A stretch of 64,000 nt of DNA from Mycolicibacterium lutetiense (GTDB lineage: Bacteria; Actinomycetota; Actinomycetes; Mycobacteriales; Mycobacteriaceae). Below, in pieces: positions 3,283 through 31,629 of the stretch. The notes beneath the pieces are model-generated. The model was not told the origin of the DNA. It ran no database searches and was given only the letters and a program-made list of their open reading frames with translations. The position numbers were made by a program, and so were the translations under genes. Within the stretch, counting starts at the first letter, position 1, and each line of letters opens with the position of its first letter. The stretch spans positions 1,793,442 through 1,857,441 of the forward strand of contig NZ_JAGIOP010000001.1 in the NCBI RefSeq assembly GCF_017876775.1, written 5' to 3'.

Positions 3283-3299
3283 ATCTCTAAAATAGAGAA
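3283..3299 (-). promoter_or_regulatory. Shared palindromic operator, copy 1
   Basis: ATCTCTAAAATAGAGAA, one mismatch from the perfect 17-bp palindrome ATCTCTAAAATAGAGAT seen at 4550, 14254 and 31613. It lies about 120 bp upstream of the small Cys/His protein gene, which reads away from it on the minus strand. On that strand its centre reads TATTTT, which could act as a -10 box. The stretch 3300-3511 holds no convincing gene. Confidence 0.7.
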
Positions 3300-3511
3300 T
3301 ATCACCGAAGGGGCTTCTCTGCATCCCGCCGTTCTCGCCGCGCTGGCCGCCACACCGGGTCCTATTCAGAGCGGCGTTCAGGCGTCGTTATGTGCCCGTA
3401 CGCATCGGCGTGTGCTCTGATCGACGCGACAGTCGCCGTGCCACAGCCTCACGAGCACACCTGAACTGATGACAGGTGCGTCCTGAACATCCACTACATC
3501 CTGCGGTCCGT

Positions 3512-3712
3512 TCAGGTGTCGAGTTCGCGGTAGTCGAACTCGTATCCCTCGCCGTGGAGGTAGTTCTGCAGACTCCCGCTGCCCTCGTCGGCGTAATAGC
3601 CGCCGGGATCGTAGGTGGCGCGAATATGGTCGAACACCTCGTCGTAGGTGGCGTGACGCGTGACTACAGGCTCGCCCGCGCTTGGGTCGGCGGTGGTTAG
3701 TTCCCAGACCAT
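3512..3712 (-). CDS. Small hypothetical protein
   Basis: A 66-residue acidic protein (MVWELTTADPSAGEPVV). Its ATG shares one base with the TGA of the upstream gene (TGATG), so the two are translationally coupled. It is rich in Tyr, Asp and Gly near the C-terminus, with no recognisable domain. Probably a small accessory protein of the element. Confidence 0.6.
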   Translation of the reverse strand: MVWELTTADPSAGEPVVTRHATYDEVFDHIRATYDPGGYYADEGSGSLQNYLHGEGYEFDYRELDT

Positions 3713-3942
3713 CAGACGTCCCAGCTAAATTCGCGGCCGACCAGCCCTGGATCGGCGGAACAGGTGGCGATCTCGGCGAAGTAACCGGACTCGTCGGCAC
3801 CGACATTGCTGCCAGTGCGTGGGCGCAGATGTTCATCGGCCCACTCGTCGAGGTCGCCAGTCGGAGCTGGCACGTCGAAGGTCTCTGTGCGCGGATACTC
3901 CTGGCCGTCATAGACGTCGGTGAATTTCACGGTGATCTGCAC
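3712..3942 (-). CDS. Small hypothetical protein
   Basis: The GTG start at 3942 is preceded by AAAGGA at good spacing. The long open frame further upstream has no plausible ribosome-binding site and reads like non-coding sequence. The 76-residue product (VQITVKFTDVYDGQEYPRTE...) is a likely beta-rich acidic protein. It forms a coupled pair with the next gene and is divergent from the gene at 4182. Function unknown. Confidence 0.6.
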   Translation of the reverse strand: MQITVKFTDVYDGQEYPRTETFDVPAPTGDLDEWADEHLRPRTGSNVGADESGYFAEIATCSADPGLVGREFSWDV

Positions 3943-4181
3943 GGGGGCGGTTCCTTTCGTAGGGGCGAGGTGCGTCGCCACGGTGTCAGGTGACTCCATG
4001 GGCAGGAGCACGCGGCGCGACGTGCTCGGGCTGGTGGCTGTCACGTCCCTTCCTTCGGGCGAGTCGCAGCCCGTGGCCGGCGGCGGGCCGTGGCCCGGTG
4101 TGTCGGTGCATGTGGCTAGGTCGAGCGGCCGGGGAATGGTTTCCTGCTCACGGTGTCCCGCCTGGAATGCAAGGAGAATCC

Positions 4182-4493
4182 ATGTCTGAGAGCGCATCGC
4201 GAGTCGCAGCCGAAGCGGCGCTGTTCCTGGCCGGCCGCAGCGCCGATGATCTCGGCTGGCCCGACCGCTCCTGCGTGGCACGGCAGTTCGACGCCGCGCT
4301 TATGGGTGGTCTCGGTCCCGCGCAGTGGGTACCCGATCCGGTTATGTGGTGCATCGCGGTGCTGGAGCCGGCCATCGAACGTCGCATGCCCGGTCCCAGT
4401 GACGATCTGCGCGCCTTGGGGTGGCCGCACGCGCCCACAGTTGCAGCGCGGCTGGTTCAGTGGCTCGTCGAGGACGGAATCTTGACTGACTAG
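4182..4493 (+). CDS. Small hypothetical protein
   Basis: AAGGAG lies five bases upstream of the ATG at 4182 and fixes the start, giving 103 residues (MSESASRVAAEAALFLAG...). The protein is helical and Ala/Trp-rich, without a known motif. It lies between a divergent small-gene pair and the palindrome-controlled RIIA-like operon. The 240 bp upstream, between the divergent starts, should hold both promoters. Function unknown. Confidence 0.6.
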   Translation: MSESASRVAAEAALFLAGRSADDLGWPDRSCVARQFDAALMGGLGPAQWVPDPVMWCIAVLEPAIERRMPGPSDDLRALGWPHAPTVAARLVQWLVEDGILTD

Positions 4494-4530
4494 TGGCTGA
4501 CTAGCACCGCTTTTATTGCACAACGCGAAC

Positions 4531-4566
4531 TTGTCGGTGGCTGTGTGTAATCTCTAAAATAGAGAT
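4531..4566 (+). promoter_or_regulatory. Promoter with palindromic operator over the -10 box, copy 2
   Basis: TTGTCG at 4531-4536 and TAAAAT at 4555-4560 are separated by 18 bp, a fair sigma-A-type promoter. The -10 lies inside the perfect palindrome ATCTCTAAAATAGAGAT (4550-4566). A protein bound there would block polymerase, so repression is the simplest reading. It drives the operon that starts with the RIIA-like gene 28 bp downstream. Confidence 0.75.
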
Positions 4567-4593
4567 CAACCGACACCCCTTCAGGAGCTTGAG

Positions 4594-6666
4594 ATGCGTC
4601 TTCCCGCCCCCGTTTCGACACTGGTCACCACTGGCGATGTCACTGCTTCGGCACCGACGATGGCTAGCCGTGTGGACCCCGAGGGGGCGCGGCGCATGAT
4701 GGACATTCTCATCAACCTTTACGCCGACCGCCGCCTGGCGGTGGTGCGCGAGTACGTCTCCAACGCCGTCGATGCCACTCGCGTGGCGGGCAGCACCGCC
4801 CCGGTGCAGGTGACCAGCCCGACCGAACTGGAACCCAACCTCATTGTCACCGATGCCGGTATCGGTATGTCCGCAGCCGAGGTCGAAGCCACGTTCCTGG
4901 CGTTCGCTGCCTCGACCAAGCGCGACAGCAACGACCAGATCGGCGGTCTTGGTGTCGGAGCGAAATCGGCTCTGACAGTGGCCGAGTCGTTCCTGGTGGA
5001 CACCATCAAGGGTGGTCGCCGCACCCTGGTGCGCGCCGCCCGTGACCTCACCCATCAGGTGCTGCTCGCTGATGCGCCCAGTGACCTGCCCAACGGCACC
5101 ACGATCACCGTCGCCGTGGAAGTCGCAGGCCAGCTCGACAAGTGGAACACGGTCATCCGTGAGGTCTCCTCGGCCCACCCCGAAGGTGCCGTCCTGGTGG
5201 ACGGTAAGCCGGTGGCGAGCCTGTCGGGTGGGCTGCGCTGGATCGGACCCGTCGGCTGCCTGCGCGCGGGGGATCGCACTGTCGCGGTGCTGTCCGGCGG
5301 CACCCTGTTCGACGCCGTTCCAGAGGTGGTCAACCGAGTCCTCGCAGCCACACGGTTGCAGGCGGCGGTGATCGAACTGCCCATCGGATCGTTCGATCAC
5401 ACCCCCAGTCGCGAATCAGTGGTCGCCACCGAGCGCACGCTGAGCGCCGTGGACGCCGCGCTCGAGACGTTCGCGCAGGTCTACGGAGACCTTGAGGAAA
5501 AGGTGGCGACCCTGGCCCTGACCGACGTGCACGCCGCTGCGACCCTGCGTGCCAGCATCCTGGGCGATGTGGCCCGCGCCGATCTGCTGCCGGTCCCGTT
5601 TCACGCCGTGGTTCCCGGCGGTTCGGGTGTTCGGTTCGGGTCGGAAAAGGGGCGCCGGACCAACCGGCGTCGCTGGAAGATCGCCGAGGCCGGCGAGGTG
5701 GTGTTCACCGCATTGGGGGCCGAGCGCGTCCTCAAAGACGTTGTGGTGGTTACCGATGTGCCCGCGCGACGCGGCCTGCGAAGCTTCGCCACGCTGATGG
5801 CTGAAACGCACTCTGAGGCTCGGTGGGTGGTCCCAATCGTCGAAGGCACCGACCGCATCGATCTTCCGATACTGGGAGAAGGCGACACCGCTACCGGGCA
5901 GGTCTGGCCGATCAGTGCCGACACCCCCGGTGTCACCGTGTACAGCTTCACCGAGTGGCTGGCGGCCACGACGACTAAGCGCGCACCGCGCAGCGGGCTG
6001 TCCGGATACGAGACCCGCATGGTCGCCACGGATGGCGGGCCGCAGACCCGGCAGGTGCTGACCGGCGCGGAGATCGCCGCGCTCGGGTTGCCGGTCTGGT
6101 ACATCGAGGGCGACCCTCACTACAGCCACGATTCCCGACTGGATTCCATTGTGGCAGTGGCGGTCTACCTGGGTAGGCGCAAACCGGGTCCGTTGCTGGC
6201 TGCGGTCCCCGAGGCGCAGCCCTATCACCAGTGGGCGCGGGCGCGGTTCGACGCCGAGTCCGCCGGTTGGACCGACATCGAACGTATCGCTGCTGCGGTG
6301 GATGCGCAGCCCTACTGGACCGGCGACAAGATGCGCCTGGCGCTCGCCACCGATGCGGTGGCCCGGATCGCTCCGGGCCACCCGCTGCGCGAGATGGTGG
6401 TGCGCCTTGCCGAGATCGAGACTGCACGCCGGGCGCTGTCCGCTGACCATGCCACGGTAATGGCCCGTGCGGCCGTCCTGGGGGTCGGCAGCGGCGCCCT
6501 GGCCGAGGTGCGGCAGCTGACTACAGCACTGAACAAGGCGTACCCGCTGCTGGACCACATGCGCAGCAACGTCTCTGAATTCGACCGCCGGAAGTTTGTG
6601 GACTACATCGTGCACACCCCGCCGCGATTGCCCACCGCCGACAACGCCTCCGCTAACGCTGCCTGA
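4594..6666 (+). CDS. RIIA-like GHKL ATPase
   Basis: The 690-residue protein has an N-terminal Hsp90/gyrase-type (GHKL) ATP-binding fold: VVREYVSNAVDA (E53, N57) is the N box, TDAGIGM (from T86) the G1 box and GGLGVGAKSAL (117-127) the G2 box. The rest is unlike MutL, Hsp90 or gyrase. The gene directly downstream is RIIB-like, which identifies the pair by context as homologous to phage T4 rIIA/rIIB. In T4 these are membrane-associated proteins that affect lysis and resist Rex exclusion. The start has AGGAG upstream. It is first in a palindrome-controlled operon that continues to a sigma factor and a helicase. Confidence 0.75.
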   Translation: MRLPAPVSTLVTTGDVTASAPTMASRVDPEGARRMMDILINLYADRRLAVVREYVSNAVDATRVAGSTAPVQVTSPTELEPNLIVTDAGIGMSAAEVEATFLAFAASTKRDSNDQIGGLGVGAKSALTVAESFLVDTIKGGRRTLVRAARDLTHQVLLADAPSDLPNGTTITVAVEVAGQLDKWNTVIREVSSAHPEGAVLVDGKPVASLSGGLRWIGPVGCLRAGDRTVAVLSGGTLFDAVPEVVNRVLAATRLQAAVIELPIGSFDHTPSRESVVATERTLSAVDAALETFAQVYGDLEEKVATLALTDVHAAATLRASILGDVARADLLPVPFHAVVPGGSGVRFGSEKGRRTNRRRWKIAEAGEVVFTALGAERVLKDVVVVTDVPARRGLRSFATLMAETHSEARWVVPIVEGTDRIDLPILGEGDTATGQVWPISADTPGVTVYSFTEWLAATTTKRAPRSGLSGYETRMVATDGGPQTRQVLTGAEIAALGLPVWYIEGDPHYSHDSRLDSIVAVAVYLGRRKPGPLLAAVPEAQPYHQWARARFDAESAGWTDIERIAAAVDAQPYWTGDKMRLALATDAVARIAPGHPLREMVVRLAEIETARRALSADHATVMARAAVLGVGSGALAEVRQLTTALNKAYPLLDHMRSNVSEFDRRKFVDYIVHTPPRLPTADNASANAA

Positions 6667-6710
6667 CCGGTATCTCCCATCGAGCTTCGAAAGACAAGGA
6701 AACACACACC

Positions 6711-7763
6711 ATGCGCGCATTCATCGACGCCAACTCCATCATCGTCACCGAAGGCGATGACACCGTGATGGTCGGCTCCGCCGACCCCGCCTACCAGAAC
6801 GTGCGGACCTACCTCGTTGATGACCACGGCCAGGACTTCGCCACCGTCAAGAGCCTGGTGGAGGTGGTGCGGGTCACCGTAAGAGCAGCCGTCGCCGAGG
6901 CGGTGTCGGTAGTGGACGGCAACGACGACGACGCCGACGACGCCTACCGGGTCACTCACGGTGACCCGGTGGCCGAGACAGTGCTGTCTACCGCTCTGCG
7001 GCTTGCCCGCGAGACCGCCGACATGGCACCACTGGGGGCGTTCCTGCGCCGTCTGGAGCGCAACCCGTCGGCCGCATCGCGCTCACAGCTGTTCGGCTGG
7101 CTCAAGGCCGGAGGCTTCGTGCTGACCACCGACGGGCTGATCGTCGGCTACAAGTCGGTACGCAACGATGGCTTCTCGGCGCACGCCGGTCGTGAGGCGG
7201 TGACGGTGGTCCACCAGGACGGCACCAGCGAGACCATTACCGGGAACATTCCGTACCCGGTCGGTGCGACGGTGTGGATGGACCGTGATCTGGTCAACCC
7301 AGACAGGCACTCGGCGTGCTCGGTGGGCCTGCATGTCGGAACCTACAACTATGCCAGCGATTTCAGCGAGCAGATGCTGGTGGTGTTGGTGGACCCGGCC
7401 GATGTGGTGTCGGTGCCCGCCGATCACAACGCGCAGAAGATGCGGGTGTGCCGCCTGACGGTCGCCGCTCGTCACGACGGTGAGCAGATCTCGGACGCGG
7501 TGATTGAGCATATCCGTACGGTGCCTGATTTCGAGGCGTCCGACGAATACGCCCGCCGAGAGGGGAATAAGCCACGTCCGACGTTCGGCGTCGTGGTGTC
7601 GTTCGGTGATTCGGACGACGAACTCGATAGCGATCACGAAGACCACGAAGGTGATGAACAACAGGGCGATCAGCGCTGCGATGAGTACGCGGGTGGCGAC
7701 GAGGATGAGATCGTTGTGCCGCTGGGGGAGACGCCGTGCATGCCGGATCAGTGGTCGCTATGA
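6711..7763 (+). CDS. RIIB-like protein
   Basis: The 350-residue product has the RIIB signature in order: FLRRLERNPSAASRSQLFGWL (111-131), TTDGLIVGYKSVRNDG (139-154), a CSVGLHVGTYNYASDF block (203-218) and VVLVDPADVVSVPADHNAQKMRVCRL (224-249). These match the ordered landmarks of T4 RIIB (YKRVR, CSAGLH, VVSIPADYN). The C-terminal 90 residues are strongly acidic and look disordered. It lies 44 bp after the RIIA-like gene. The stop overlaps the next start (ATGA), so the operon continues. The exact role outside phages is unknown. Confidence 0.8.
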   Translation: MRAFIDANSIIVTEGDDTVMVGSADPAYQNVRTYLVDDHGQDFATVKSLVEVVRVTVRAAVAEAVSVVDGNDDDADDAYRVTHGDPVAETVLSTALRLARETADMAPLGAFLRRLERNPSAASRSQLFGWLKAGGFVLTTDGLIVGYKSVRNDGFSAHAGREAVTVVHQDGTSETITGNIPYPVGATVWMDRDLVNPDRHSACSVGLHVGTYNYASDFSEQMLVVLVDPADVVSVPADHNAQKMRVCRLTVAARHDGEQISDAVIEHIRTVPDFEASDEYARREGNKPRPTFGVVVSFGDSDDELDSDHEDHEGDEQQGDQRCDEYAGGDEDEIVVPLGETPCMPDQWSL

Positions 7764-7918: not shown

Positions 7919-8574
7919 GCACGGCCATGCATTTAGTGAAGCAGACGGATCTTCCCAAGGATCTGCCCGAGTTGTTGACCGCGGAGCAAGAAGTGGAGCT
8001 TGCCAAGCGGATAGAGGCCGGCTTGTACGCACAGTTCCTACTCGCCAAGGGAGCCTCGCAGTACACCCCGGCACAGTTGAGATTGGTCGCTGCGGACGGT
8101 CGAGCAGCATTCGAGCATTTCGTGACCGCGAATGTTCGTCTCTCCGCGTGGTGGGCGCGTAAGCGGGCGGTAAGGGGCGCCAGTGCGTTGCTGACAGTCG
8201 ACGACCTCACCCATGAAGGGATGCTCGGCGTCATTCGGGCTGTTCAAAAATTCGACTACACACAGGGATTCAAGTTCTCCACGTACGCGCTTCATTGGGT
8301 GCGTCTCCATCAACAGCGAGCGATCGCCAAGGCAACCCCCGCCGCGCTGTCTTCCAGCGACCAGGAGCGTTGCAGGGAACTGCTTATGGTCACCTCCCAG
8401 CTGGGTACTGACCTGGGTAGGACGCCTAGCGATGCCGATGTCGCGGCTGTGATGGGTGTCAGCCCAATGGGCATCGCTCAGATGCGCGCCATGATGTCCC
8501 GCGCAGTTTCGCTGGACGCACCGCTAAGCCTTGATCCACCGATGAATGGGCTGGTTGTTGGGGTGTCGGAATGA
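7915..8574 (+). pseudogene. Sigma-70 family sigma factor, 5' part (disrupted by IS1380)
   Basis: Host-derived sequence ends at 8528; the frame then runs into the IS and stops at 8574. The retained part has a region 1.2-like helix, region 2 (HEGMLGVIRAVQKFDYTQG, then FKFSTYALHWVR, core binding and -10 recognition) and region 3 with an HTH, ending in the SLDAPLS linker. Region 4 is in the fragment at 10486. Joining 7915-8528 to 10486-10774 gives one frame of 300 residues, the size of compact alternative sigma factors. The start is GTG 7915, coupled to the upstream gene; ATG 7927 is possible. The truncated product might still bind core polymerase. Confidence 0.85.
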
Positions 8575-8649
8575 GGAAAGTGCCCTCTGAGCTGGAAAGA
8601 TTGGTGTTCTCTACGCAACAATCCGACCAGCACAAGAAAGGCACTTCCA

Positions 8650-8823
8650 GTGCGAGTGTCCCACACGTTCGGTCCCGACTCCGCGGTGTTCGACGAGGAC
8701 AACCTCGTGTCGTGCGCCGGGCTGGTCCCGGTGATGGCCCTGGCCGAGCAAGCTGGCCTGACACGGTTGTTGGACAACACAATTCACATCAGGTCGTCTC
8801 GGGTCAAGTCCGGGGCGGCTAAC
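8650..8823 (+). pseudogene. 5' remnant of an IS1380 transposase
   Basis: From GTG 8650 the frame reads VRVSHTFGPDSAVFDEDN and continues through a VSCAGLVPVMALAEQAGL block, clearly homologous to the start of the intact transposase at 8943 but diverged. It stops being homologous at the left inverted repeat of the inner copy (8824). It marks an earlier IS1380 copy into which the present one inserted. Confidence 0.8.
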
Positions 8824-8942
8824 CCTCGATCCACCGATGAATCGCCTGTTCGGAGGGTGTTGATGTAAGGAAAGTGCCCTTTGAGCTGGGATGATTGGAG
8901 TTACCACACTTCGATCAGCCCACGTTCAGAAAGGCGCTTCCG

Positions 8943-10346
8943 GTGCAAGTGTCCCATAGGTTCGCCGTGTCGTCGGCGGTCTTCGATGATGCACATCTCG
9001 TGTCGTGCGCCGGGCTGGTGCCGGTGATGACCCTGGCCGACCAGACCGGTCTGTCGCAGCTATTGGCCGACAAGATCCGGTTCACCTGTGAGCGGATCCG
9101 TTCGGCCGCGGCCCATCCGTCACCGAAGCTGACCACGCTGATCGCCGGGATGTGCGCCGGCGCGGACAGCATTGATGACCTAGACGTTGTGCGCTCGGGT
9201 GGGATGAAGACCCTCTTCGGTGGTGTGTACGCCCCGTCGACGATCGGAACCTTATTGCGGGAGTTCACCTTCGGGCATGCCCGCCAGCTCGAATCTGTCC
9301 TGCGCGAACACCTGGCCGCGCTGTGCGGGCGTGTCGATCTGTTGCCCGGCGCCGACGGACGGGCGTTCATCGACATCGACTCACTACTACGCCCGGTCTA
9401 CGGGCACGCCAAGCAGGGCGCCAGCTACGGACACACCAAGATCGCCGGCAGGCAGATCCTGCGCAAAGGCCTCTCACCGTTGATCACCACGATCAGCACC
9501 GACCACGGTGCGCCGGTGATCGCCGGGGCGAGGTTGCGGGCGGGCAAGGCCAACTCCGGCAAGGGCGCAGCCCGCATGATCGCTCAAGCGGCCGCTACCG
9601 CCCGTGCTGCCGGGGTCACCGGGCAGATCCTGGTGCGTGGCGATTCGGCCTACGGCAATAGCACCGTGGTCACCGCCTGCCACCGAGCAGGTGTCCGGTT
9701 CTCGCTGGTGCTGACCAAGACCGCAGCAGTTGCCGCCGCCATTGACGCAATTCCCGAGACCGCGTGGACCCCGGTGAACTATCCCGGTGCTGTGCGTGAC
9801 CCCGACACCGGCGCCTGGATCTCCGATGCCGAAGTCGCCGAAACCACCTACACAGCCTTCGGTTCCACCAAGACTCCGGTGACCGCCCGGTTGGTCGTGC
9901 GCCGGGTCAAAGACGCGCGGTTCCTCGATGCGCTGTTTCCGGTGTGGCGGTACCACCCGTTCTTCACCAATTCCGACGAACCCGTCGACGCCGCTGACAT
10001 CACTCATCGCCGCCACGCCATCATCGAAACCGTGTTCGCCGACCTCATCGACGGACCTTTGGCGCACATGCCCTCGGGGCGGTTCGGCGCGAACTCGGCC
10101 TGGATCCTGTGCGCCGCGATCGCCCACAACCTGCTGCGCGCCGTCGGCGTCCTGGCCGGAGGTGCCCACGCGGTCGCCCGCGGGGCGACACTGCGCCGCA
10201 AGATAATCACTATCCCGGCCCGCCTGGCCCGTCCGCAACGCCAACCTATCCTGCACCTACCAGCGCACTGGCCCTGGACAGAGCACTGGCTCACGTTGTG
10301 GCGCAACACCATCGGCTACAGCCCACCAGAAATCGCCACCACCTGA
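8943..10346 (+). CDS. IS1380-family transposase
   Basis: About 467 residues from GTG 8943, which follows AAAGG and aligns with the start of the remnant copy. The DDE-fold landmarks are GRAFIDIDSLLRPVYGHAKQ, ILVRGDSAYGNSTVV and, further on, HRRHAIIETVFADLIDGPLA, as in IS1380 transposases. It is full length for the family and has no internal stop, so it may be active. It lies inside the element that splits the sigma factor gene. A longer in-frame start at 8895 would lie in the terminal region. Confidence 0.92.
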   Translation: MQVSHRFAVSSAVFDDAHLVSCAGLVPVMTLADQTGLSQLLADKIRFTCERIRSAAAHPSPKLTTLIAGMCAGADSIDDLDVVRSGGMKTLFGGVYAPSTIGTLLREFTFGHARQLESVLREHLAALCGRVDLLPGADGRAFIDIDSLLRPVYGHAKQGASYGHTKIAGRQILRKGLSPLITTISTDHGAPVIAGARLRAGKANSGKGAARMIAQAAATARAAGVTGQILVRGDSAYGNSTVVTACHRAGVRFSLVLTKTAAVAAAIDAIPETAWTPVNYPGAVRDPDTGAWISDAEVAETTYTAFGSTKTPVTARLVVRRVKDARFLDALFPVWRYHPFFTNSDEPVDAADITHRRHAIIETVFADLIDGPLAHMPSGRFGANSAWILCAAIAHNLLRAVGVLAGGAHAVARGATLRRKIITIPARLARPQRQPILHLPAHWPWTEHWLTLWRNTIGYSPPEIATT

Positions 10347-10485
10347 CCATATGCCGAAAGGCCCGACCGGAGCGCACAGGAACAGCTGGACAGACCAGCA
10401 GATACCCCCTGCCCGCGACCAGGACCAGCCCTCAACAGCCCAGCGAGGCACACCTACCCCAATTCATCAGTGGATCGAGGCTAAG

Positions 10486-10774
10486 CGAGGGAGGTCGCGA
10501 TGGCTCCTCCAGCCTGCTCGACTTCCTGGCAGGTCGAGACTGTGGCGGCCACGACAATGATCATGACATTGCCGCCCAACAGCTTTCGCAGTTGATGGAG
10601 CGGCTCTCTCATCGCGAGCGGCGAGTCATCTCTGAGGTGTTCGGTCTGGATAGGGGAGAGCCGCAGTCGGTGGCCGAAGTCGCAGACAAGTATCGGCTCC
10701 CCGTCGTCAAGGTCCGCGGGCTCATTGAAGGGGCGATGGCCAAACTTCGCGGCGAGCAGCAGGTGGCGGCATGA
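10486..10774 (+). pseudogene. Sigma-70 family sigma factor, 3' part (region 4)
   Basis: Downstream of the second CTAAG the frame reads EGGRDGSSSLLDFLAG, then region 4: LMERLSHRERRVISEVFGLD, SVAEVADKYRLPVVKVRGLIEGAMAKL, the -35-binding HTH. It continues exactly the frame and sense of the 5' fragment (SLDAPLS then EGGRDG), typical of the region 3.2 linker of compact sigma factors. Its TGA overlaps the ATG of the helicase (ATGA). Whether it is translated on its own is unclear. Confidence 0.85.
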
Positions 10775-13700
10775 CTGCGCTACTGCAGGGGTGCTCACCG
10801 ATCAGTGACGCTGTGCCGCAACCGCGTCCGCATCAGCGTGCCGCGCTCGACGAGCTAGCCGACGCAGGGGAACGAGCGCAGCTGCGGATGGCGTGTGGCA
10901 CCGGTAAGACTCTCATCGGACCGTGGCACGCGCTCGAAGTCGGGGCCCGCACAGTTGCGGTGTTCACGCCCAGTATTGCGTTGGTGGCACAGACCGCCGC
11001 CGAATGGCGACGCGTCATACCTGGTGTGCGCGTATTGGCCGTATGTTCAGATCCGACAACGGATGCCGGGCGCGCGGAAATCGGCGTTGACGGAATCGAC
11101 CCGTTCGAAGGGCAACACGACCAAGGCGGCAACGTGACCACCCGAGCTGAGGTGGTTGCCGGGTTCCTTGAATGTGCTGAGACATTCGGTGCGTCCATGT
11201 CTCTCGTGGTGTCCACTTACCATTCCTCGCAAGTGGTCGCTGACGGGATCGGCTTGACGCGCAGCGGACAACCCCTGGATCTGGTGGTCGCTGACGAGGC
11301 TCACCACCTTGCCGGCCGCACCAACGCTGCATTTCTCCCGGTGCTCGATTCGCGCAGTGTGCTGGCGCGGCGCCGAGTATTCGCAACGGCAACGCCCATA
11401 GTCCTGAAAAGCCGTGGCGGCGCTGAGGCCATCGACGATTTGTCCGGAGCGAGTGCGGTCGCAAGATCCATGGATGACACTGGGTTGTTCGGGGAGATCG
11501 CATACACCTTGAATGTCGGGGAAGCCGTCAGCGCTGGATTGTTGGCCGACTACCGCGTCTTGGTGACCACCACAACCGAACCAGCAGGGGAAGCGACCGG
11601 AGAGCGAGCTGCGTTGGCCGCGCTGCTCGATGTAGTGCGCCGGTACGGTGTGCGGCGCATCCTGACCTTTCACAATCGAGTAGATTCTGCACGGGCATTC
11701 GCTGAACGTGTCAGCGCACTCATCGATGTGGACGGCACACCCATCCGTGCGCTCGCCGTTGACGGTTCAATGCACGACTCAGAGCGCGTGAAGATCCTGG
11801 CCAGACTCGCCGACACACGGATGGATGGGATCACTGTGGTTGCCTCGTCGCAGTGCCTGCGTGAGGGCATCGACGTACCGGCAGTCGACGCCGTCGTGTT
11901 CGCCGATCCACGCACCAGTCAGGTGGGAATCATCCAGGCCATCGGTCGAGCCTTGCGTAAGCATCCCGGAAAATCCCACGGCACCATCGTCATTCCGCTG
12001 ATTCTCGACCCCGACGCTGATGATCAGGACCAGCTGTCCACGTCCTCCTACGCCCACGTGTGGCGGGTTCTGCAAGGGCTGCGTGCCCATGACTCGCGGA
12101 TCGGTCACGACATCGACAGGGCACGCCGCACTGGTACCAACGGCTACATCGACCCGGATGTTGTGGACTGGTTGGAAGTCACCGGGAGCCAGTCCGGGAC
12201 GATAATCACGCGGCTGCTGCAGCGCACATCGTCGGTATGGGAGCGCAACTTTCAGCAGCTGTGCGACGAGGCGGATCGGCTAGGGTCAGCCGCGCGGATT
12301 ACCACGCAAAGCACAGCGCTGGGCCAGTGGATCACCCTGCAGCGCATTCTATTCCGTGATGGGATGCTCGACGAAGACCGCCGCAAGAGGCTTGAATCGG
12401 TCAACGGCTGGCGATGGGATGCGAAAGAGGCCTCCGACGAGCGAACCTTGGACCGGCTCCGCGCTGTTTGCACTGGTCGGGGAAGCCTTGATGACACGTC
12501 TCCTGGCGATTCGATCTTCACGGGATACGTCGACGGACTGAACCGGCCACTGCGGCTGTGGGTGGCGACGCAGCTGTGCCGATACTGGGACAACGAGCTG
12601 GACAGCTGGATCGCCGAGGCGCTCCGGCAGATGCCGGGCTGGGACTGGTATCCGTTGTCAGAGGTCGATCAAGCCGGCGTGGCGGCATTTCGCTCCTTCG
12701 CCGCGTGGGAAGGTCACGCCGATGTCCCACCGGGGCACATCGAGGATGACATCGACCTCGACGCTTGGCTCGGAACAGTTCGGCGCCGCAAGATCTACGG
12801 GACACTGCCACCGATCCTGGAATCGGTCCTACTGGCATCGACACCGACCGGCCGCAAAGGAGAACGGCGCTTCCTGTGGAAGCCATCGGAAACTCATTGG
12901 CAGATAGCGGAAATGGCGTGCCATCAGTACATCGCCAAGCACGGCACACTGGCGCGGATGCCGATTGGGACCGTCGAGGACGTCGAAGGCAAGCGTTTCG
13001 AGCTGTACCAATGGTGTGCGGCCACCCGGTCTCGGCGCAAGCGCGGAGACTTACGGCCGCAGGATAGCGCTATCGAACGATTCACTGGATGGACCTGGGG
13101 TTCACCCGGGCAGGGCGGCACCGACATGATCACCGGTCCAAAGCCGGGCGTCACCGACCACAGCACCCGTGGATTCCAACAGGGTTGCCGCTGCGTTGTC
13201 TGCGTCACCGAGAACCGCAGTTACATGCGACGCGTCGCATCGGAGCGGCGAGCGACGTACCGCGCTGATTGGGTGTCCGCACAGGACGTCCGTGAACACC
13301 TCCAAGGCTTGCTTGCGCTGGAGACAAGCAAGGACCGATCTGATGCCACATTCACGATCGGTGCGATCGCCGCGGCTGCATGTGTCTCGCGAGGTCTAGT
13401 GTCGCTGCTCGTTGGGCGAGCAGCGGAGCCCAGGTGCAGCAAACTGCATCGGCGCATACTGCTTGACCTCACCGCGGACGACGTCCGCGCGGTGCGGACA
13501 GTGCAGCGGTCCCGGGGACGTCAAGGCATCCGTGACTACAACGCGCAGGTCGACGACCCGGAGCCCACCTGGATGCTGCTCAACCAGGCCGCAGCGGCGG
13601 GTTGGACACGCCAGCAGCTGACCGCAGCGCTCGGTTACAGCAGCACGGCCAACACGCCGATCAGCGGCAAGCCCATAACCATCGCCCAGGCCAAACTCGT

Positions 13701-14250: not shown

Positions 14251-14273
14251 CTAATCTCTAAAATAGAGATTAG
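14251..14273 (+). promoter_or_regulatory. Shared palindromic operator, copy 3 (longest)
   Basis: The core ATCTCTAAAATAGAGAT (14254-14270) is extended by CTA on the left and TAG on the right, giving 10-bp arms around AAA, the most extended of the five copies. TAAAAT at 14259-14264 could be the -10, with ATAGAC 17 bp upstream as a weak -35. It controls the gene starting at 14336. Confidence 0.75.
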
Positions 14274-14335: not shown

Positions 14336-15040
14336 ATGAGCAACGTTCTGTTCACTGCCGACTTGTACCGGATTATCAAGCAGGCGATGGCATTCGCCGA
14401 GCACGACAAAGTGCTCGCATACACGGGAGCGGCCAAGAGCTATCACCAGATCCATCTGGCCTCATTCGGTGAAAACCTGCTGTCGGTGGCCACCGACGGG
14501 AAGGCCATGGGCGTCTCGAAGGCGAAGTGGATTACTGAGATCAGCGGGGAATGTGACATCCCGTCGCCATCGCAGTTCGACAACCAGCCGGGGCCGGTGT
14601 TCGGGCTCAATGTTTCGCTAGACGACGCCAAAGAACTGATACGGCTGAGCCGTACGCTCAAAAGTGACCGCTGGAGGCGGACTGTATCGGTGAATCCGGC
14701 CGGCAACTACGCCGAGTTCGTGTTCAGTTCCGGGGAGACGCTGACCGCCAAGGACACTGACGTCTATTTCCCGCGCTGGCAAGCCCTCTTCCCTGAGTCA
14801 ACCGAAGGCGTGCCGCGCTCGGTGACGGGCCTCAACCCCAAGCAGATCGCCAAGTTCGCAGTCGTCGATGACTCCCCGATGTCCCTGGTGACGCGCGACG
14901 ACGTCCATGGCAAGTCGCAGAAGAGCATCCTGGTCACGATCGGAGACGCCTTCATCGGTGTCATCATGCCGGTCAATCTTCGCGACGGCACCAACGAACA
15001 CCCACAGTGGCACCGCCCCAACTGGATTGGGGAACTGTAA
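14336..15040 (+). CDS. Possible sliding-clamp-like (DnaN/gp45 fold) protein
   Basis: ATG 14336 follows AAAAGGGG; 234 residues. Motifs recalling beta clamps are: LASFGENLLSVATDGKAMG near residues 42-60 (compare clamp ATDGHRL), FGLNVSLDDAKELIRLSR, LTAKDTDVYFPRWQALFPE (compare the G.YPDY..LIP turn) and a C-terminal IGDAFIGVIMPVNL (compare the clamp ILPMRL end). It is shorter than bacterial DnaN (about 370), nearer to the roughly 230-residue phage clamps. The identification is an inference from pattern, not certain. It is first in a palindrome-controlled operon, coupled to the next micro-ORF by TAATG. Confidence 0.4.
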   Translation: MSNVLFTADLYRIIKQAMAFAEHDKVLAYTGAAKSYHQIHLASFGENLLSVATDGKAMGVSKAKWITEISGECDIPSPSQFDNQPGPVFGLNVSLDDAKELIRLSRTLKSDRWRRTVSVNPAGNYAEFVFSSGETLTAKDTDVYFPRWQALFPESTEGVPRSVTGLNPKQIAKFAVVDDSPMSLVTRDDVHGKSQKSILVTIGDAFIGVIMPVNLRDGTNEHPQWHRPNWIGEL

Positions 15041-25005: not shown

Positions 25006-27135
25006 TCAGTTCGCCGGAGCCACTCCGGCAGCTGCGCCCTTCACCGAGGCCTTCGCACGCTTCTCGGCGCGTATAGGTTTTCCGTCGCGCACGAAGCCAG
25101 CGGTGGAGGCGACCGTAGAAACGAGCATGCTCTCATCGCTGATGAACGGATGGAACCCAACACCGCTGCCGCCACGTCCTTTCGTCGGAATATCCCAGAC
25201 AGCAGTGACTTTCCAGCCCTTCTCTGAGATCGACAAGATCGCTTCAGACTCAGCTCCAGTGAGCTGGAACGCGGCGATCACCGCGTCACCTCCATCGGAG
25301 GCCAGCTTGATGCCGAGCACCCCGTTGCCGGCGGCGCCCTGTGGATTAACGGTCGCGGGATCCAGTCGCAAGACCTTGCCGCGCCGGGTGATCAGTCCGA
25401 GGTGCGCACCAGGGGCCAACACCCCGGAGCACAGCAGCCCGGTGATGTCTGGGGCGACTGGAACGTCGCGCGTCTTTGTCGGCAGGCCTTTGCCGTCAGT
25501 CAGTTTCACTCTGCCGTCAGTCCATACCGCCCAGCCGAGACCATTCGAGAGCAACTCACCGTGACTGTCGGAGAACACGCCCCGATCATCGAGTCGCCAG
25601 TTCTTGTTGATCGTGCGCTCACGGGGGCCGTCGTCGGAGCCCCCACCAGTCACCGGCACCGCATCGAAGTCCAGGTGCGTACGGCGATCGAACTCGGGCG
25701 CGTTGAACAATCTTGTCGTCTCGACCAGCTCCGCGTCGATCACCGCGCGGCGCTCGGTCGGTGACGAGACCAGTCGAGTGAGCGTGGCGTGTTCAGCATC
25801 CAGCTTCTTCGATTCAGCCTGCAGTTCCAGCACGTCGAGCCGGGTCAGCCGGCGCAGCTGCATCGCCAGTACGTAGTCGGCCTGCTCTGCGTCGAGCGTG
25901 AACCGCGCTTGCAGCCCAGTGCGTGCGTCGTCGACGGTATCGGAGCCGCGGATGATCGCCACGGCGGCGTCGATGTCCAAGTGCACCGCCATCAGGCCGG
26001 CCACCAGGTGCCGCCGCGCCTCGACCTTCTCCAGCCGGTACTCGCTGCGGCGCAACACCACTGAATCACGCAGGGACAAAAATGCCGAGATCAGTTCGCG
26101 CACAGTCCACCAGCGCGGAACCCGGTCGCCATCAAGCGCAACCACGCTGGCCGCGAACGTGCCCTCCAGCGGAGTCTGGGCCAGCAGCTGGTCACGCACC
26201 GTCTCAGGATCGTGCCCGCGCTTTACTGTGACTGCAATGCGTAGTCCGTTGCGGCGGTCGGTTAGGTCGGACATGTCGGCGATGCCCGGAGCTTCCCCCG
26301 ACTCGACTAGAGCACGGATTCGTTCCTGCACAGTGGAACTGGCAACACCGGGCGGAAGCTCAGTGATCGTGATCGTCTTACCGTCGACCACCGCCGTGCC
26401 GCGTACGGTGAACGCACCTTTTCCGGTGGTGATGTAGTCGCGAAGCCCGTCGGAACCGACCACGGATGCCCCGCAACCCCAGTCAGGGCCAGGCAGCAGT
26501 TCCATGAGCGCGTCATCGGACAACTGTGGATCAGCCAGTAGCGCCCGGCACGCCGCCATCACCTCGCGAGGGTTGTGTGCGGGAACCTTGGTGGCCCAAC
26601 CTTCGGCGATGCCGACGGCACCGTTGCAGAGCAGGAACGGGAATTGCGCCGGCAGCACGGCCGGCTCAATCCATTCCCCGTCGAACGTGTCGGTCATCGG
26701 TACCGCGTGGTCTCCGAGTTCAGAGGTCAGTGCGGCACCCGTTGGGGACAGGCGCATTTCTGTGTATCGGTCGGCGGCCGGTGTGTCACCTTGAATGCGC
26801 GGGAAAGCTCCCTGTCCGTCAATGATTTTGACGCGCTGGAAGTCGGCGGCCAGAAGCGCCGCTGCGCCATACATCGCTGCACCACCGTGCGGGTGCAGGT
26901 TGCCGGTAACCGCCGAGCAGACCTTCGACGACTTCTGCGGCTTGTTGCCCGGCAGCAGCTTTGAGGCGTGCATCTGGTACAGCAGACGGCGCTGTCCAGG
27001 TTTGAGACCATCGAATGCTGACGGTATCGCACGATCGCTGACGCTGTAGAGCGCGAAGGTGAGTTGGTATCGGTTCCAGTAGTCCTCGGCGCTCTGCTCG
27101 AGCACAAGGTCACGGTTCTGTTCTGTGGCAGTCAC
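25006..27135 (-). CDS. Type IIA topoisomerase, GyrA/ParC-like subunit
   Basis: 709 residues. The breakage-reunion domain has AADRYTEMRLSP with catalytic Tyr124. A C-terminal domain has beta-propeller-like repeats (LGLITRRGKVLRLDP, EAILSISEKGWKVTAVW) and a possible degenerate GyrA box (KGRGGSG). It is shorter than mycobacterial GyrA (about 840). In the quinolone-contact helix the usual HPHGDxxIYD reads HPHGGAAMYG (81-90). It is 12 bp downstream of the GyrB-like gene, hence an operon. As mycobacteria usually rely on a single chromosomal gyrase, this is an accessory enzyme; whether it supercoils or only decatenates cannot be told. Confidence 0.9.
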   Translation of the reverse strand: MTATEQNRDLVLEQSAEDYWNRYQLTFALYSVSDRAIPSAFDGLKPGQRRLLYQMHASKLLPGNKPQKSSKVCSAVTGNLHPHGGAAMYGAAALLAADFQRVKIIDGQGAFPRIQGDTPAADRYTEMRLSPTGAALTSELGDHAVPMTDTFDGEWIEPAVLPAQFPFLLCNGAVGIAEGWATKVPAHNPREVMAACRALLADPQLSDDALMELLPGPDWGCGASVVGSDGLRDYITTGKGAFTVRGTAVVDGKTITITELPPGVASSTVQERIRALVESGEAPGIADMSDLTDRRNGLRIAVTVKRGHDPETVRDQLLAQTPLEGTFAASVVALDGDRVPRWWTVRELISAFLSLRDSVVLRRSEYRLEKVEARRHLVAGLMAVHLDIDAAVAIIRGSDTVDDARTGLQARFTLDAEQADYVLAMQLRRLTRLDVLELQAESKKLDAEHATLTRLVSSPTERRAVIDAELVETTRLFNAPEFDRRTHLDFDAVPVTGGGSDDGPRERTINKNWRLDDRGVFSDSHGELLSNGLGWAVWTDGRVKLTDGKGLPTKTRDVPVAPDITGLLCSGVLAPGAHLGLITRRGKVLRLDPATVNPQGAAGNGVLGIKLASDGGDAVIAAFQLTGAESEAILSISEKGWKVTAVWDIPTKGRGGSGVGFHPFISDESMLVSTVASTAGFVRDGKPIRAEKRAKASVKGAAAGVAPAN

Positions 27136-27147
27136 GGTGTTGCGCTC

Positions 27148-29169
27148 CTAATCCAGGTCCAAGGACGAGGTATCGATGCGCGAAGCGGCGTCGGCCATCC
27201 ACGTGCGCCGGCCTTCAGGAGCCCCGCCAAACAAGGTGTGGTGCAGTGCGCCGCCGAGGGCGTCGGGGCGTACCTGAATGACGGTCCGCTGACCTGGATC
27301 CAGCACGGTGTTCCAGAAGTCGTCGGCGTTCATTTCGCCGAGGCCTTTGTTGCGTTGTACCTCGACCCTCGACCGGCCTCCTGACCTCAATCGAGCTACG
27401 GCGACGTCACGTTCGGTGTCGTCCTGGCAGTAGATGCGCTGCGAGCCGTCGGAGACCACGAACAGCGGCGGAAGGGTGACGTAGACCATGCCGGCTTCGA
27501 CTAGAGGCCGGTAGAAGTCGAGGAACATCGAGATCAGCGACGAGTTGATGTTGCCACCATCGGGATCGGCGTCGGAGGCGAAGAGAATCTTGTCGTATCG
27601 GCACTTCTCCGGGTCGCAATGGTCACGTACCCCGCAGTCGAGAATCCGCTCGATAGCCTGAAATTCCTCCTTGCCGCGAGCTTTTGCGACCGTCCACCCG
27701 TAGACGTTCGGTGGTTTGCCCTTGAGCGGGAACGCTGCCTGGAACGTTGCGTCCCGCGCGGCCTTGATGGTGCCCAGAGCCGAGTCACCCTCTGCTATGA
27801 ACAGCTCTGCTCCAGAACCGCGGCCAGTTTCACGGCAGGGCAGCAGCTTTGGCGGCAGTGAGAGATTCGTCCCCAGCCCCTTGGCTTTAGATGCCGCACG
27901 GGACCGGGATTTGGCCCCCTCAGCGCTGCGGCGAGCTCGTGCGGCTTCGAGAGCGAGTTTCGTCCACATGGTCACGGTGTCGGTGTTCGCCGGGTTGGCC
28001 GACCACACCGCGGTGCTGCGTGCCACGTCGGTCGACATTGCCGTGTTCAGAGACCGTGACGACACTCCGGTCTTGTCTTGGCCGTTCCAGGAGACATCAG
28101 GCGCACGGGTATCGACGGCCAGCGCGGTGACCGCGGCGAAGTCCTGCGGCTCGGGGCCATCCTCTCCTTTGGCCAGGCCGAGGTCGCGCAGCCGCGCGGC
28201 GCGGGACGCCAGGGCCTCGGTCAGTCCTTTTACAGCCGCGTTCAGATGTGATCCGCCATCAGCGGTGTAGACGGTGTTGCAGAAAGAGGACACCGTTGCG
28301 GGCTCGGCCGGTCCGGCCGTCAGCGACCAGCGAAACGGCGTAGGTCCACGACCAGTCACGTACTCGCCGCGGCCCTCGACGGAGGCCCGAAGCGCGGGTA
28401 TGGGGGTCTGCGCGCAGGCACACATGAAGTCCAGCACTGCGCTCGTACCCCAAGGCCCGGAGAATGACCCCAACAAAGCTGCGGGTAGGGGACCGCTTGG
28501 CCAGCCTTCGTCGATCACGGTCAGGTGCACGTTTTGGGTCATGCGCACCGCCGCGTGGGCACGCAGCAGAACCTCGGTGATGTCGAGTGCGGTGTCGGGG
28601 GCCACCGACGGGTCGAGCAGCATGCGTACAGAGGTGCCGTGCACGGCGGGCTCGCCGTTGGACACTCCACGCAGCTTCTGAGTGTCATCGCGGGTGAAGT
28701 CGGCGTCGGGATTGAAGCCGTCACCCGCGAAGCGGCCAGGATACCCACCACCAAAGCTCTGCTTGTACGTTTTCCCGGCGCGGTACACGGTGACGTCAGT
28801 GCGTCGGGAGATGAATACCGCAGCTGCAGCACCGATCCCGTTGAGGCCGGCACCGGTGGACTCGGCGTCGGCATGCGCGGTGAACTTCCCACCTGACCGC
28901 GCCGTGCCCAGTGTTTTGACGACGCCGTTCTTTCCGGCCGGGTCGGAGTCAACAGGTAAGCCCCGACCGTCATCAGTGACGGTGAACGATCCGTCGGATC
29001 TCAAGATGATCGACACCGTGGACCCGTGAGCACCTGCCTCTTCCACGGCGTTGTCGACGATCTCGCGAGCGGCGGTCTGGTAGACCCTCGCACCGAGGTT
29101 GACCTGTGGCCGCATCCGGGTGTGCTGGATGTCGTCTAGCTCGATGACATCCGCGGCGGTGTAGCTCAC
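27148..29169 (-). CDS. Type IIA topoisomerase, GyrB/ParE-like subunit
   Basis: 673 residues. The GHKL ATPase domain has REIVDNAVEEA, DDGRGLPVD and TGAGLNGIGAAA; the TOPRIM domain has LFIAEGDSALG, LKGKPPNVYGW and FASDADPDGGNI, where the canonical form is DADVDGxHI; the C-terminus has QRNKGLGEMNADD. All catalytic groups (Glu of EGDSA and the DxD) are present. It pairs with the adjacent GyrA-like subunit. The cluster may resemble the atypical second topoisomerase reported in Mycobacterium smegmatis (a possibility, not tested). Confidence 0.9.
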   Translation of the reverse strand: MSYTAADVIELDDIQHTRMRPQVNLGARVYQTAAREIVDNAVEEAGAHGSTVSIILRSDGSFTVTDDGRGLPVDSDPAGKNGVVKTLGTARSGGKFTAHADAESTGAGLNGIGAAAAVFISRRTDVTVYRAGKTYKQSFGGGYPGRFAGDGFNPDADFTRDDTQKLRGVSNGEPAVHGTSVRMLLDPSVAPDTALDITEVLLRAHAAVRMTQNVHLTVIDEGWPSGPLPAALLGSFSGPWGTSAVLDFMCACAQTPIPALRASVEGRGEYVTGRGPTPFRWSLTAGPAEPATVSSFCNTVYTADGGSHLNAAVKGLTEALASRAARLRDLGLAKGEDGPEPQDFAAVTALAVDTRAPDVSWNGQDKTGVSSRSLNTAMSTDVARSTAVWSANPANTDTVTMWTKLALEAARARRSAEGAKSRSRAASKAKGLGTNLSLPPKLLPCRETGRGSGAELFIAEGDSALGTIKAARDATFQAAFPLKGKPPNVYGWTVAKARGKEEFQAIERILDCGVRDHCDPEKCRYDKILFASDADPDGGNINSSLISMFLDFYRPLVEAGMVYVTLPPLFVVSDGSQRIYCQDDTERDVAVARLRSGGRSRVEVQRNKGLGEMNADDFWNTVLDPGQRTVIQVRPDALGGALHHTLFGGAPEGRRTWMADAASRIDTSSLDLD

Positions 29170-30435: not shown

Positions 30436-30590
30436 CGCATTCCCTTTCTGGCCCGCGCGCCGGGTGCGTTGGCCGCGATTAGGAAACCAGAAGTTGCAAT
30501 GTGATTCGGGTGCAGGACGCGCATCGGACGAGGGGCGCTTTTTGGGGTACTGCGAGCTGTGGCACCCATAATCGACTGTGCTACAGGCCT

Positions 30591-30617
30591 CTCGCATCGT
30601 CGGCCGGCTGATGCGAG
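30591..30617. promoter_or_regulatory. Dyad CTCGCATC / GATGCGAG
   Basis: Perfect 8-bp inverted repeat around 11 bp, in the divergent region between the DUF2637 gene and the RYxx-repeat gene. Possible operator for either. Confidence 0.4.
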
Positions 30618-30671
30618 CCTCCTATAGTCCGCACGATGTCGTAACGCGCATGCGTGAGGAGTATTTGTTCG

Positions 30672-30986
30672 ATGACGGCTCCGCGCTACAGGCCGCGCTA
30701 CAGCGCACGCTACGGACTTCGCTACAGCGATAGCTACACAGATAAATACAAGTACCGATACAACGCCAGATACGGCTTCCCTCAAAGTCTTTGGCGATGG
30801 ATAACTGACCCCGAACCCTCCGCTGTGAACCAACCGCCGACGTGCTCGTGCACGGCGGGATCAGCGGAGCGGAGGTGCACCCGTTGCGGCTCGAATTCCG
30901 CGCCGACTGATGGGCGCATGCAGGTAGCCGGCTCGCGGGTCGTGCTGACTAGCCGGGGTTGCATCTGCACCTGTGACAGCGCCTAG
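30672..30986 (+). CDS. RYxx-repeat and cysteine-rich small protein (possible)
   Basis: GAGGAG lies ten bases before ATG 30672; 104 residues. Residues 5-36 are eight successive tetrapeptides of the form (R/K/S)-Y-x-x (RYRP, RYSA, RYGL, RYSD, SYTD, KYKY, RYNA, RYGF). The C-terminal half has paired cysteines (CSC, CTRC, CICTC). The DNA underneath is an exact 12-bp periodic repeat, so the frame could instead be a by-product of noncoding iterons. Confidence 0.4.
   Translation: MTAPRYRPRYSARYGLRYSDSYTDKYKYRYNARYGFPQSLWRWITDPEPSAVNQPPTCSCTAGSAERRCTRCGSNSAPTDGRMQVAGSRVVLTSRGCICTCDSA
30684..30779 (+). repeat. Eight tandem 12-bp degenerate repeats
   Basis: Units begin CGCTACAGGCCG, CGCTACAGCGCA, CGCTACGGACTT, CGCTACAGCGAT and drift to AGATACGGCTTC, with consensus (C/A)G(C/A)TAC(A/G) every 12 bp and no gaps. 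They encode the RYxx repeats if translated, or may act as iterons. Confidence 0.75.
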
Positions 30987-31249
30987 CGCGGACCGATGGT
31001 GGGCTGTCACGTCCCTCGATAATCACGCGGTTAAAGGCTCGCAGTCTCCATTTTGAGTCACCCGCCGCCGTCGCGCCGTGGGGGCAGGCGGGGGGAGTGT
31101 CAGCACATCCGACCATGCGGTTTTCGCGACAGCATGCGACACCCCGGCCGGCTTCCACATCCATCGCTCGGCGGCGAAGCTGGAAGCTGGCGCATGCCTC
31201 CGCAGCTGTTTGGTAGCCACGAAACTCCGGGGCGCCAGAAGAACTGATT

Positions 31250-31506
31250 TGCGTCACGCCGACGCATCAGTGCCCGCGGTGATTGCGTCACCAATGCAGA
31301 AGCGGTGCGTCATGAACCGTATGACGCGGTACAGCTTCGCGGAATGTTTTCCGTGTTCGCGTGATGCAGCACTGCGTCACGCGCTGCATCACGCAGCTGC
31401 GTCACGAGTCCGTCTGCAATGCGCTCAGCCGCGTCAAGCCACTGCGTCAGGTGACGCGGCGGTTGTGTCGTGCTGGTGCGTCACTCGTGCCGAATTGTTG
31501 CGTCAC
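31250..31506. repeat. TGCGTCA(C) motif cluster B in a 660-bp gene-free region
   Basis: TGCGTCA occurs at 31250, 31284, 31306, 31373, 31398, 31443, 31477 and 31499, with extra GCGTCA copies in inverse orientation (31322, 31452) and a TGCATCAC at 31385. The region 30987-31593 holds no convincing gene. Such clusters are typical of plasmid origins, partition sites or binding arrays. Confidence 0.6.
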
Positions 31507-31593
31507 GAGCGCCGCGAATCGGACTCTTCACACGTCGGCGCAACAGATTGTCAATGCCACGACCAAGCCGCGTTGGCGGTCTTGTGTGACTAC

Positions 31594-31629
31594 TTGTCAG
31601 ACCCGTCCATTAATCTCTATTTTAGAGAT
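31594..31629 (+). promoter_or_regulatory. Promoter with shared palindrome, copy 5
   Basis: TTGTCA (31594-31599) and TATTTT (31618-31623), 18 bp apart, with the -10 inside the perfect palindrome ATCTCTATTTTAGAGAT (31613-31629). Same geometry as the promoter at 4531. It lies about 20 bp before the ATG of the PARP gene. Confidence 0.78.

Follow-up and report, generated by a model that had tools for sequence, protein, structure and literature searches.

Which genes are controlled through a palindrome that recurs in a 64-kb stretch of the Mycolicibacterium lutetiense genome, and which protein reads it? The stretch, hereafter the window, forms the final 64 kb of contig C1, and an earlier note had proposed from five copies of the palindrome that one DNA-binding protein governs one regulon there. 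The regulon is strongly supported by our analysis, since one operator is confined to an integrated element, lies between genes, is placed at promoters and is kept at several orthologous promoters in other species. The regulator suggested at the time, a protein with several helix-turn-helix (HTH) domains, is not supported. Judged from sequence, TAWTCTCTA-WWW-TAGAGAW is probably the operator of a small element-encoded XRE/HTH_3 repressor (Cro/C1-type), which would control about 20 promoters, its own among them.

Distribution and placement of the operator

The five palindromes of the window are real. The 17-mer is exact at 4550 to 4566 and 14254 to 14270 on the plus strand and at 31613 to 31629 on the minus strand, and it has one mismatch at 3283 to 3299 (plus strand, ATCTCTAAAATAGAGAA). 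The copy at 17651 to 17667 (plus strand; given as 17650 in the note) differs by two substitutions, and its flanks (AGTATCTAAAATAGAGATACT) confirm the reported loss of two bases, in the left arm, which shifts the outer arm. At up to three mismatches the window holds these five places, against 0.02 expected and a largest count of one in 100 shuffles, and the right half has none, as had been observed. The statement that each copy lies upstream of genes fails for 3283, where the nearest open reading frame (ORF; 52 amino acids, aa) is 210 bp away; the copy at 14254 stands 65 bp before the next gene. Those at 3283, 14254 and 17651 are kept in the mycobacterial genome G127, the first of them at C1:4197881.

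Five copies proved too few. A scan of the genome (6,345,289 bases, three contigs, up to three mismatches) gave 18 distinct places and none for the reversed control, and a 21-bp weight matrix gave 21. The 18 places fall at C1:1698436-1825070 or C2:21549-87613. A direct repeat of 43 bp, which corresponds to the 3' part of tRNA-Pro(ggg), occurs at C1:1693556-1693598 and C2:91963-92005, and all 18 sites lie between its two copies, that is, from C1:1693556 to the contig end and in C2:1-92005; we therefore read the two contig ends as one element of about 256 kb (about 164 + 92 kb) divided by an assembly break. With no site outside this element at that threshold, the motif is not equally common elsewhere in the genome.

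A tyrosine integrase (C1:1693721-1694929; Phage_integrase 1.1e-25) stands beside the C1 repeat copy, so that an integrase at a tRNA gene and flanking direct repeats are both present, the two ends being on two contigs. Conjugation machinery is represented by EccA, EccB, EccD, an FtsK/SpoIIIE protein (EccC-type), an S8 protease and an AAA_10 (VirB4-like) ATPase, with an EccE match slightly below the cut-off. Given these type VII secretion system (T7SS) and VirB4-type genes together with the integrase, the element looks like an integrated conjugative element with type VII/type IV secretion. A prophage, as the note's comparison with prophage operators might suggest, is not supported, as the genes scanned (about 50 of about 300 predicted proteins by Pfam, 10 by PHROGs) point to a conjugative element instead; among these 50 and 10 proteins no terminase, portal, capsid or tail gene was found, apart from a weak terminase-small-subunit match of the multi-HTH protein.

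A first weight matrix, built from 13 sites, gave at a score of at least 10 a total of 24 matches in the element (training sites included), none in 81.5 kb of flanking chromosome and a mean of 0.2 in Markov copies; four of its 11 non-training matches are members of a separate repeat of about 440 bp. For the 21-bp matrix (score of at least 11) copies of this repeat were removed, four from the M. lutetiense element and four from G127, and one divergent copy in genome G196 (site 68192) was retained. This yielded 78 sites in ten sets of stretches from six mycobacterial genomes: 21 in M. lutetiense, 20 in G127, 15 in M. austroafricanum, 9 in M. canariasense, 11 in G196 and 2 in G254. Sites found later in G254, G196 and contig C5 of M. 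austroafricanum are outside this count.

None of the 78 sites falls inside a called gene; a start follows within 100 bp for 72 of them and within 50 bp for 64. Random positions fall inside genes in 80% of cases, within 100 bp in 13% and within 50 bp in 7%; for AT-matched positions the values are 56%, 22% and 15%. Removal of the near-copies in G127 and M. canariasense leaves the picture as it is (0/50 in genes, 45/50 within 100 bp, 40/50 within 50 bp). One of the 18 genome sites, C2:33878, is inside a called 97-aa ORF (B_034) that overlaps a relic of a transfer-messenger RNA (tmRNA) gene, and it scores below the cut-off used for the 78. A test for complementary variation on both sides of the palindrome gave p 0.046 at positions +/-8, which rose to 0.20 without near-copies, and nothing at other positions. 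Beyond M. lutetiense, 356 of 395 other genomes of the genus have no match to TCTCTAWWWTAGAGA at up to one mismatch, and seven have at least three sites. The exact 17-mer also occurs in nine viral contigs, whose matrix counts are close to those of Markov copies (for example 19 vs 14.8 and 9 vs 14; 6 vs 1.6 for L034); we discounted these as chance matches in AT-rich DNA.

Homologous promoters carry the motif, though some do not. The site before the gene for a WGR-PARP protein is kept in five of five elements (M. lutetiense, G127, G196, M. austroafricanum and M. canariasense), whose proteins are 68-96% identical to that of M. lutetiense; at E<=1e-60 this gene is found in 5 of 396 genus genomes, the same five. 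The site at the promoter of RIIA is present in four of four (M. lutetiense, G127, M. austroafricanum and M. canariasense), both arms being altered in the latter two species, and that of a UvrD-like helicase (B_035) also in four of four (M. lutetiense, G127, M. austroafricanum and G254). The sites of B_071 and B_052 are kept in M. lutetiense, G127 and G196. G127 adds little independence, as its DNA is 95% identical over the aligned part.

Candidate regulators

The best candidate for the regulator is a predicted family of small XRE (Cro/C1-type) proteins with two copies in the element, both with an HTH_3-type domain above the Pfam cut-off: B_040 (109 aa, C2:40387-40716; HTH_3 40.5 bits, cut-off 23) and B_038 (167 aa with a Lys-rich tail, C2:37397-37900; HTH_31 33.6 bits, cut-off 27; HTH_3 26.9, cut-off 23). 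Each has the palindrome at its own promoter, 29 bp before the start of B_040 and 35 bp before that of B_038, and a distance of 17-35 bp is found for both XRE copies in M. lutetiense, G127 and G196. Three copies were seen in each of M. austroafricanum and M. canariasense, and two of them have the palindrome at this distance, namely one of a tandem pair and the copy beside eccB. A copy divergent from eccB is present in Tsukamurella and in five of the six genomes, all but G254, whose stretches showed none. Across 14 aligned XRE proteins thirteen positions, the start included, are invariant, among them VxSRIExGxRPxR of the presumed recognition helix. The Pfam search of B_038 and B_040 gave HTH families only, and the S24 self-cleavage domain of RecA-responsive CI/LexA proteins is absent; no viral relative of B_040 was confirmed by tblastn.

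The family and the palindrome also occur together. Eight of 396 genus genomes have at least three sites of TCTCTAWWWTAGAGA at up to one mismatch, and an XRE match at E<=1e-8 is found in six of these eight and in 4 of the 388 others (p 1.1e-9). A profile search of 11 chosen genomes placed the family in seven at 75 bits or more, the next scores being 63 and then at most 45; one of the positive genomes is G338, where the XRE start is about 130 bp from a palindrome.

A comparison with another bacterial family comes from the closest match of B_040 in the plasmid collection, in Tsukamurella tyrosinosolvens NZ_LR134455.1 (47.6%). This record is labelled plasmid 13, a doubtful label, as the genes in its first 120.8 kb are of a chromosomal kind (cobN, RbpA, lnt) and an integrase lies at 120870-122210, so that 1-120869 would be chromosome-like and an integrated element would follow. 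At a matrix score of at least 9 it has 18 places, all at 123013-260204 and none before the integrase, against 0-1 in Markov copies. Compared by eye with an incomplete gene table, 18 of 18 lie outside listed genes and 16 are followed within 100 bp by a listed start or the tmRNA, the exceptions being 123013 and 131377. The Tsukamurella XRE gene and eccB are transcribed divergently, and a site precedes the XRE start by 23 bp.

Several observations weigh against an XRE operator. The gene positions behind the placement figures come from our own simple gene caller. The operators at the XRE genes themselves are weak, with scores of 14.4 (degenerate) for B_038 and 23.7 for B_040 against 28.6-39.7 for the five window sites, and that at B_036 is degenerate as well (13.1). 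No operator was scored at the second paralogues AUS_149 and CAN_013 or at the XRE gene of G254. Nor was one scored at the M. austroafricanum orthologues of A_080, A_093, B_031 and G196_074, at those of A_080, A_093, B_036 and B_052 in M. canariasense, the latter two on C36, or at a weak (28%) orthologue of A_142 in G127. On four plasmids with RIIA relatives (50-53% identity) the palindrome is absent at these genes; the four records gave no XRE match either, which fits the model, yet it also means that RIIA can do without the operator. Lastly, genomes G353 and G393 have at least three look-alike palindromes and no XRE of the family nearby, and 13 of 14 tested sites (of 16 matches) lie in an open frame of at least 114 nt, a loose test. 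These look-alikes centre on TTCTCTRWWWYAGAGAA, several followed by GGTCA (L119-L121, G353:C1:2240295-2290599; L123-L124, G393), and are perhaps the operator of another element; DNA searches with the G353 and G338 stretches found no phage.

Another element protein, either the multi-HTH_17 protein favoured in the note or an excisionase-like HTH protein, could bind the palindrome, with the XRE genes merely among its targets. The multi-HTH gene lies at 26 to 1579 (plus strand), in a longer frame that begins before the window at C1:1792798, and the protein has counterparts in G127 (94%), in M. austroafricanum and M. canariasense (37%) and in another record of the same Tsukamurella strain (38%). We regard this explanation as unlikely: no operator was scored at the protein's own promoter, where the nearest match, 279 bp upstream, belongs to the other repeat family, and no counterpart was found among predicted proteins of the fetched G196 stretches, with their eleven sites, or of the 18-site Tsukamurella record. 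MerR/excisionase-like HTH_17 domains are, moreover, not typical for symmetric sites of 17-21 bp, and the XRE family fits better. The multi-HTH protein also has a weak match to a terminase small subunit (phrog_57, 2.9e-4).

Promoter anatomy and proposed mode of action

Promoter parts were counted with the sites oriented by the downstream gene (n=72), a box being at least five of the six bases of TTGTCG. This box stands 27 bp before the palindrome centre on the gene strand at 17 of 72 sites and on the opposite strand at one (9/45 and 1/45 without near-copies), 18 bp from a central TANNNT and 11 bp from an outer TANNNT formed by the upstream arm. In the window, TTGTCG at 4531 to 4536 (plus strand, 27 bp before the centre) and TTGTCA of the WGR-PARP promoter at 31594 to 31599 (plus strand) both precede the central TAAAAT/TATTTT by 18 bp, as had been described. 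The -10 element that the note placed inside the palindrome is less certain: the central hexamer is present but has no strand bias (46 vs 49 of 72), whereas the outer one is biased (53 vs 17 of 72, p 2.5e-9; 34 vs 10 of 45 without near-copies). At least one of the two occurs at 68 of 72 sites, and the 17 box-carrying sites have the outer hexamer in 17 cases and the central one in 13. The -10 in use may be either; in both cases the palindrome spans the -10 and start region, and a bound protein would thus block polymerase.

Element tmRNA genes lie directly behind an operator in G127 (L066:11916-12340) and Tsukamurella (L195:10226-10652), starting 4-5 bp past the palindrome, and their promoters fit the central hexamer only, pointing the opposite way. 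The M. lutetiense copy (C2 about 33400-33880) gave no Rfam match; by eye only its first part resembles these genes, and its operator is degenerate.

The four plasmid RIIA relatives that lack the palindrome have TTGTCG (three) or ATGTCG (one) 11 bp before TAGAAT. TTGTCG-N11-TANNNT without a palindrome was thus noted at RIIA promoters in L113-L116, and it stands at C1:1748457, upstream of A_105, as well. This is possibly a promoter type of these elements, in which the box is too close to the -10 for a usual -35. T4 middle promoters resemble this arrangement.

Such promoter parts bear on a further explanation, in which the sites would serve an activator or be the promoter type of the element's own sigma factor rather than repressor operators. 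Promoter placement alone is compatible with an activator as well, a further point against a repressor, and the gene-strand box, the strand-biased outer hexamer, the palindrome-free TTGTCG-N11-TANNNT before plasmid RIIA and A_105 and the position of a sigma gene in the RIIA operon all favour such a role. We nevertheless consider it improbable, as the symmetric core holds more information than any promoter part and the -10/start position is the usual place for a repressor. The sigma gene, in turn, is broken in M. lutetiense and could not be found in the sequence retrieved from Tsukamurella, from G196 (200 kb), from M. austroafricanum C11 or from M. canariasense C33, despite their many sites. That the palindrome is a transposed or recombination-related repeat with no regulatory role is very hard to sustain, even with four copies of the 440-bp repeat with its look-alike centre in the element and with look-alikes of G353 and G393 mostly within open frames, as the sequence that operator copies have in common ends with the core and the weak box, and as the copies stand in front of gene starts and recur at orthologous promoters.

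Under the XRE repressor model, a dimer would bind over both the -10 region and the transcription start at some 20 promoters of the 256-kb element, keep them off during residence in the chromosome and repress its own gene. The operator genes would form a phage-style early DNA-metabolism programme (RIIA-RIIB, sigma, helicases, WGR-PARP, WGR-ligase and DUF3310, with tmRNA in relatives), turned on when the repressor is absent, for example on entry into a repressor-free cell; alternatively, an antirepressor such as a P22_AR_N protein could release it. Binding and repression are what we infer, as are the XRE paralogue that acts and the time of use. A tentative extension, which we hold to be less likely than not yet worth stating, would see the regulon as a programme of zygotic induction common to a widespread family of giant integrated conjugative elements in Mycobacteriales: absence of XRE in a new host would fire about 20 anti-defence and take-over promoters, and XRE would then close the programme itself, the phage-like kit comprising RIIAB, WGR-PARP, WGR-ligase, helicases, the sigma factor and the element's own tmRNA. 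As tmRNA, RIIAB and PARP genes share one operator, they would act at the same time, and this shared timing makes the role of tRNA-array elements in a new host approachable. The model offers a testable control switch for very large mobile elements that have so far been recognised through tRNA arrays and secretion genes, and the operator could serve as a sequence tag for locating the genes and borders of such elements in Mycobacteriales genomes.

Element-wide repressor regulons are already known. Immunity repressors of the mycobacteriophage L5 type share with the proposed system one element-coded repressor and many short dispersed operators, some at promoters; here, in contrast, the sites are symmetric and nearly all at promoters, and no phage structural gene is among the 50 Pfam-scanned proteins. 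SetR of SXT and ImmR of ICEBs1 are likewise self-controlled XRE/C1-type repressors of integrated conjugative elements, but act on few promoters compared with about 20 here, and the scanned proteins include no S24 or ImmA-type partner. KorA and KorB of plasmid RK2 exert control through one repeated operator. The likeness lies in the coordination of many promoters across a conjugative element, as described in the accessible part of PMC11790492, whereas the regulator here is an XRE protein and nothing points to a KorB-type sliding clamp.

For related elements, the accessible text of PMC5966550 describes tRNA arrays in M. austroafricanum, M. canariasense and M. mageritense and states that about 87% of G2 arrays hold an XRE regulator gene; it names this gene but, in that part, no operator or regulon, and the M. 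lutetiense array is not assigned to G2. ESX-P5 plasmids of M. avium carry a tRNA array and a plasmid-type T7SS with a virB4 homologue, and a chromosomal ESX locus of M. mageritense is placed beside the ESX-P5 clade, according to the available portion of PMC12803027; these plasmids are linear, unlike the integrated element. The accessible texts make no mention of xre, repressor, palindrome, promoter or sigma (PMC12803027), of xre or repressor (PMC7478629), or of xre, operator or palindrome (PMC8190616). In the open-access papers searched, the operator letters matched only as a 13-base sub-string, once in each of two neuroscience papers. The XRE family, its operator and its gene set thus appear undescribed in that literature, as judged partly by titles and from accessible text.

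Genes and other features of the element

In M. lutetiense the operators precede the RIIA-RIIB group, whose sigma gene is broken and which includes a helicase, as well as the genes for WGR-PARP, WGR-ligase, the UvrD-like helicase and a DUF3310 protein and small genes of unknown function. Control of T7SS genes by the operator is not evident, apart from the fact that eccB-eccC share the intergenic region of the XRE gene. The operator at 4550 precedes genes for a RIIA-like HATPase protein (690 aa, 4594 to 6666; HATPase_c_3; phrog_612, 6.4e-52) and a RIIB-like protein (350 aa, 6711 to 7763; phrog_609, 2e-38), a sigma-70-like gene with regions 1.2-3 (7927 to 8574) and, downstream in the operon, a DEAD/ResIII helicase with helicase-associated domains (10888 to 13947), all on the plus strand. 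The RIIA-RIIB-sigma-helicase operon of the note therefore has its genes, but the sigma gene is split by an insertion sequence (IS) with a DDE transposase (DDE_Tnp_1_4, 8943 to 10346, plus strand). No viral relative of RIIA was confirmed by tblastn. Behind the copy at 14254 lies a gene for a 234-aa protein (14336 to 15040, plus strand), called clamp-like before, which has no Pfam match and hits a PHROG labelled RusA-like (phrog_12598, 5.5e-14). A 46-aa ORF (17692 to 17832, plus strand) begins 24 bp past the operator at 17651, and the WGR-PARP protein (433 aa; PARP 1.1e-21, WGR) is encoded at 31649 to 32950 (plus strand).

By eye, a remnant of sigma region 4 lies beyond the IS (sigma gene and IS, 7927-10775), and in G127, too, the match to the sigma gene is split, with about 1.6 kb between its two parts. 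Two strong Rfam Ms_IGR-7 matches on the minus strand (8530-8649 and 8825-8942) fall at the IS beside the sigma gene, so this small RNA family may be an IS end.

Thirty tRNA genes lie on C2:21.4-32.1 kb, and the element also holds gyrase A and B, restriction and defence genes. The gyrase pair (window 25006-29169) has no operator, and operator-free cargo at window 33411-64000 includes NACHT, Tox-REase-5, Type ISP-like and ApeA-like HEPN proteins and type I restriction-modification genes. A P22_AR_N (antirepressor-type) protein is encoded at C1:1783895-1784989 (L023:3895-4989), with no counterpart in the other predicted gene sets. The 43-bp repeat is absent from 320 kb of G127 at up to three mismatches, which suggests that the G127 element sits elsewhere.

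The non-coding repeat of about 440 bp occurs in four copies, at C1:1721213 (L020), C1:1792503 (L023), C2:39379 (L025) and C2:80194 (L028), and has no Rfam match at gathering score. A structured RNA of about 430 nt is mentioned for most tRNA arrays in the accessible text of PMC5966550 and is not equated here with the repeat. The repeat has a central palindrome, CTCTGTTTCAGAGAG, and 130-nt inverted arms in the copy tested, and its relatives include four look-alike centres in G127 and a 65% identical copy in G196.

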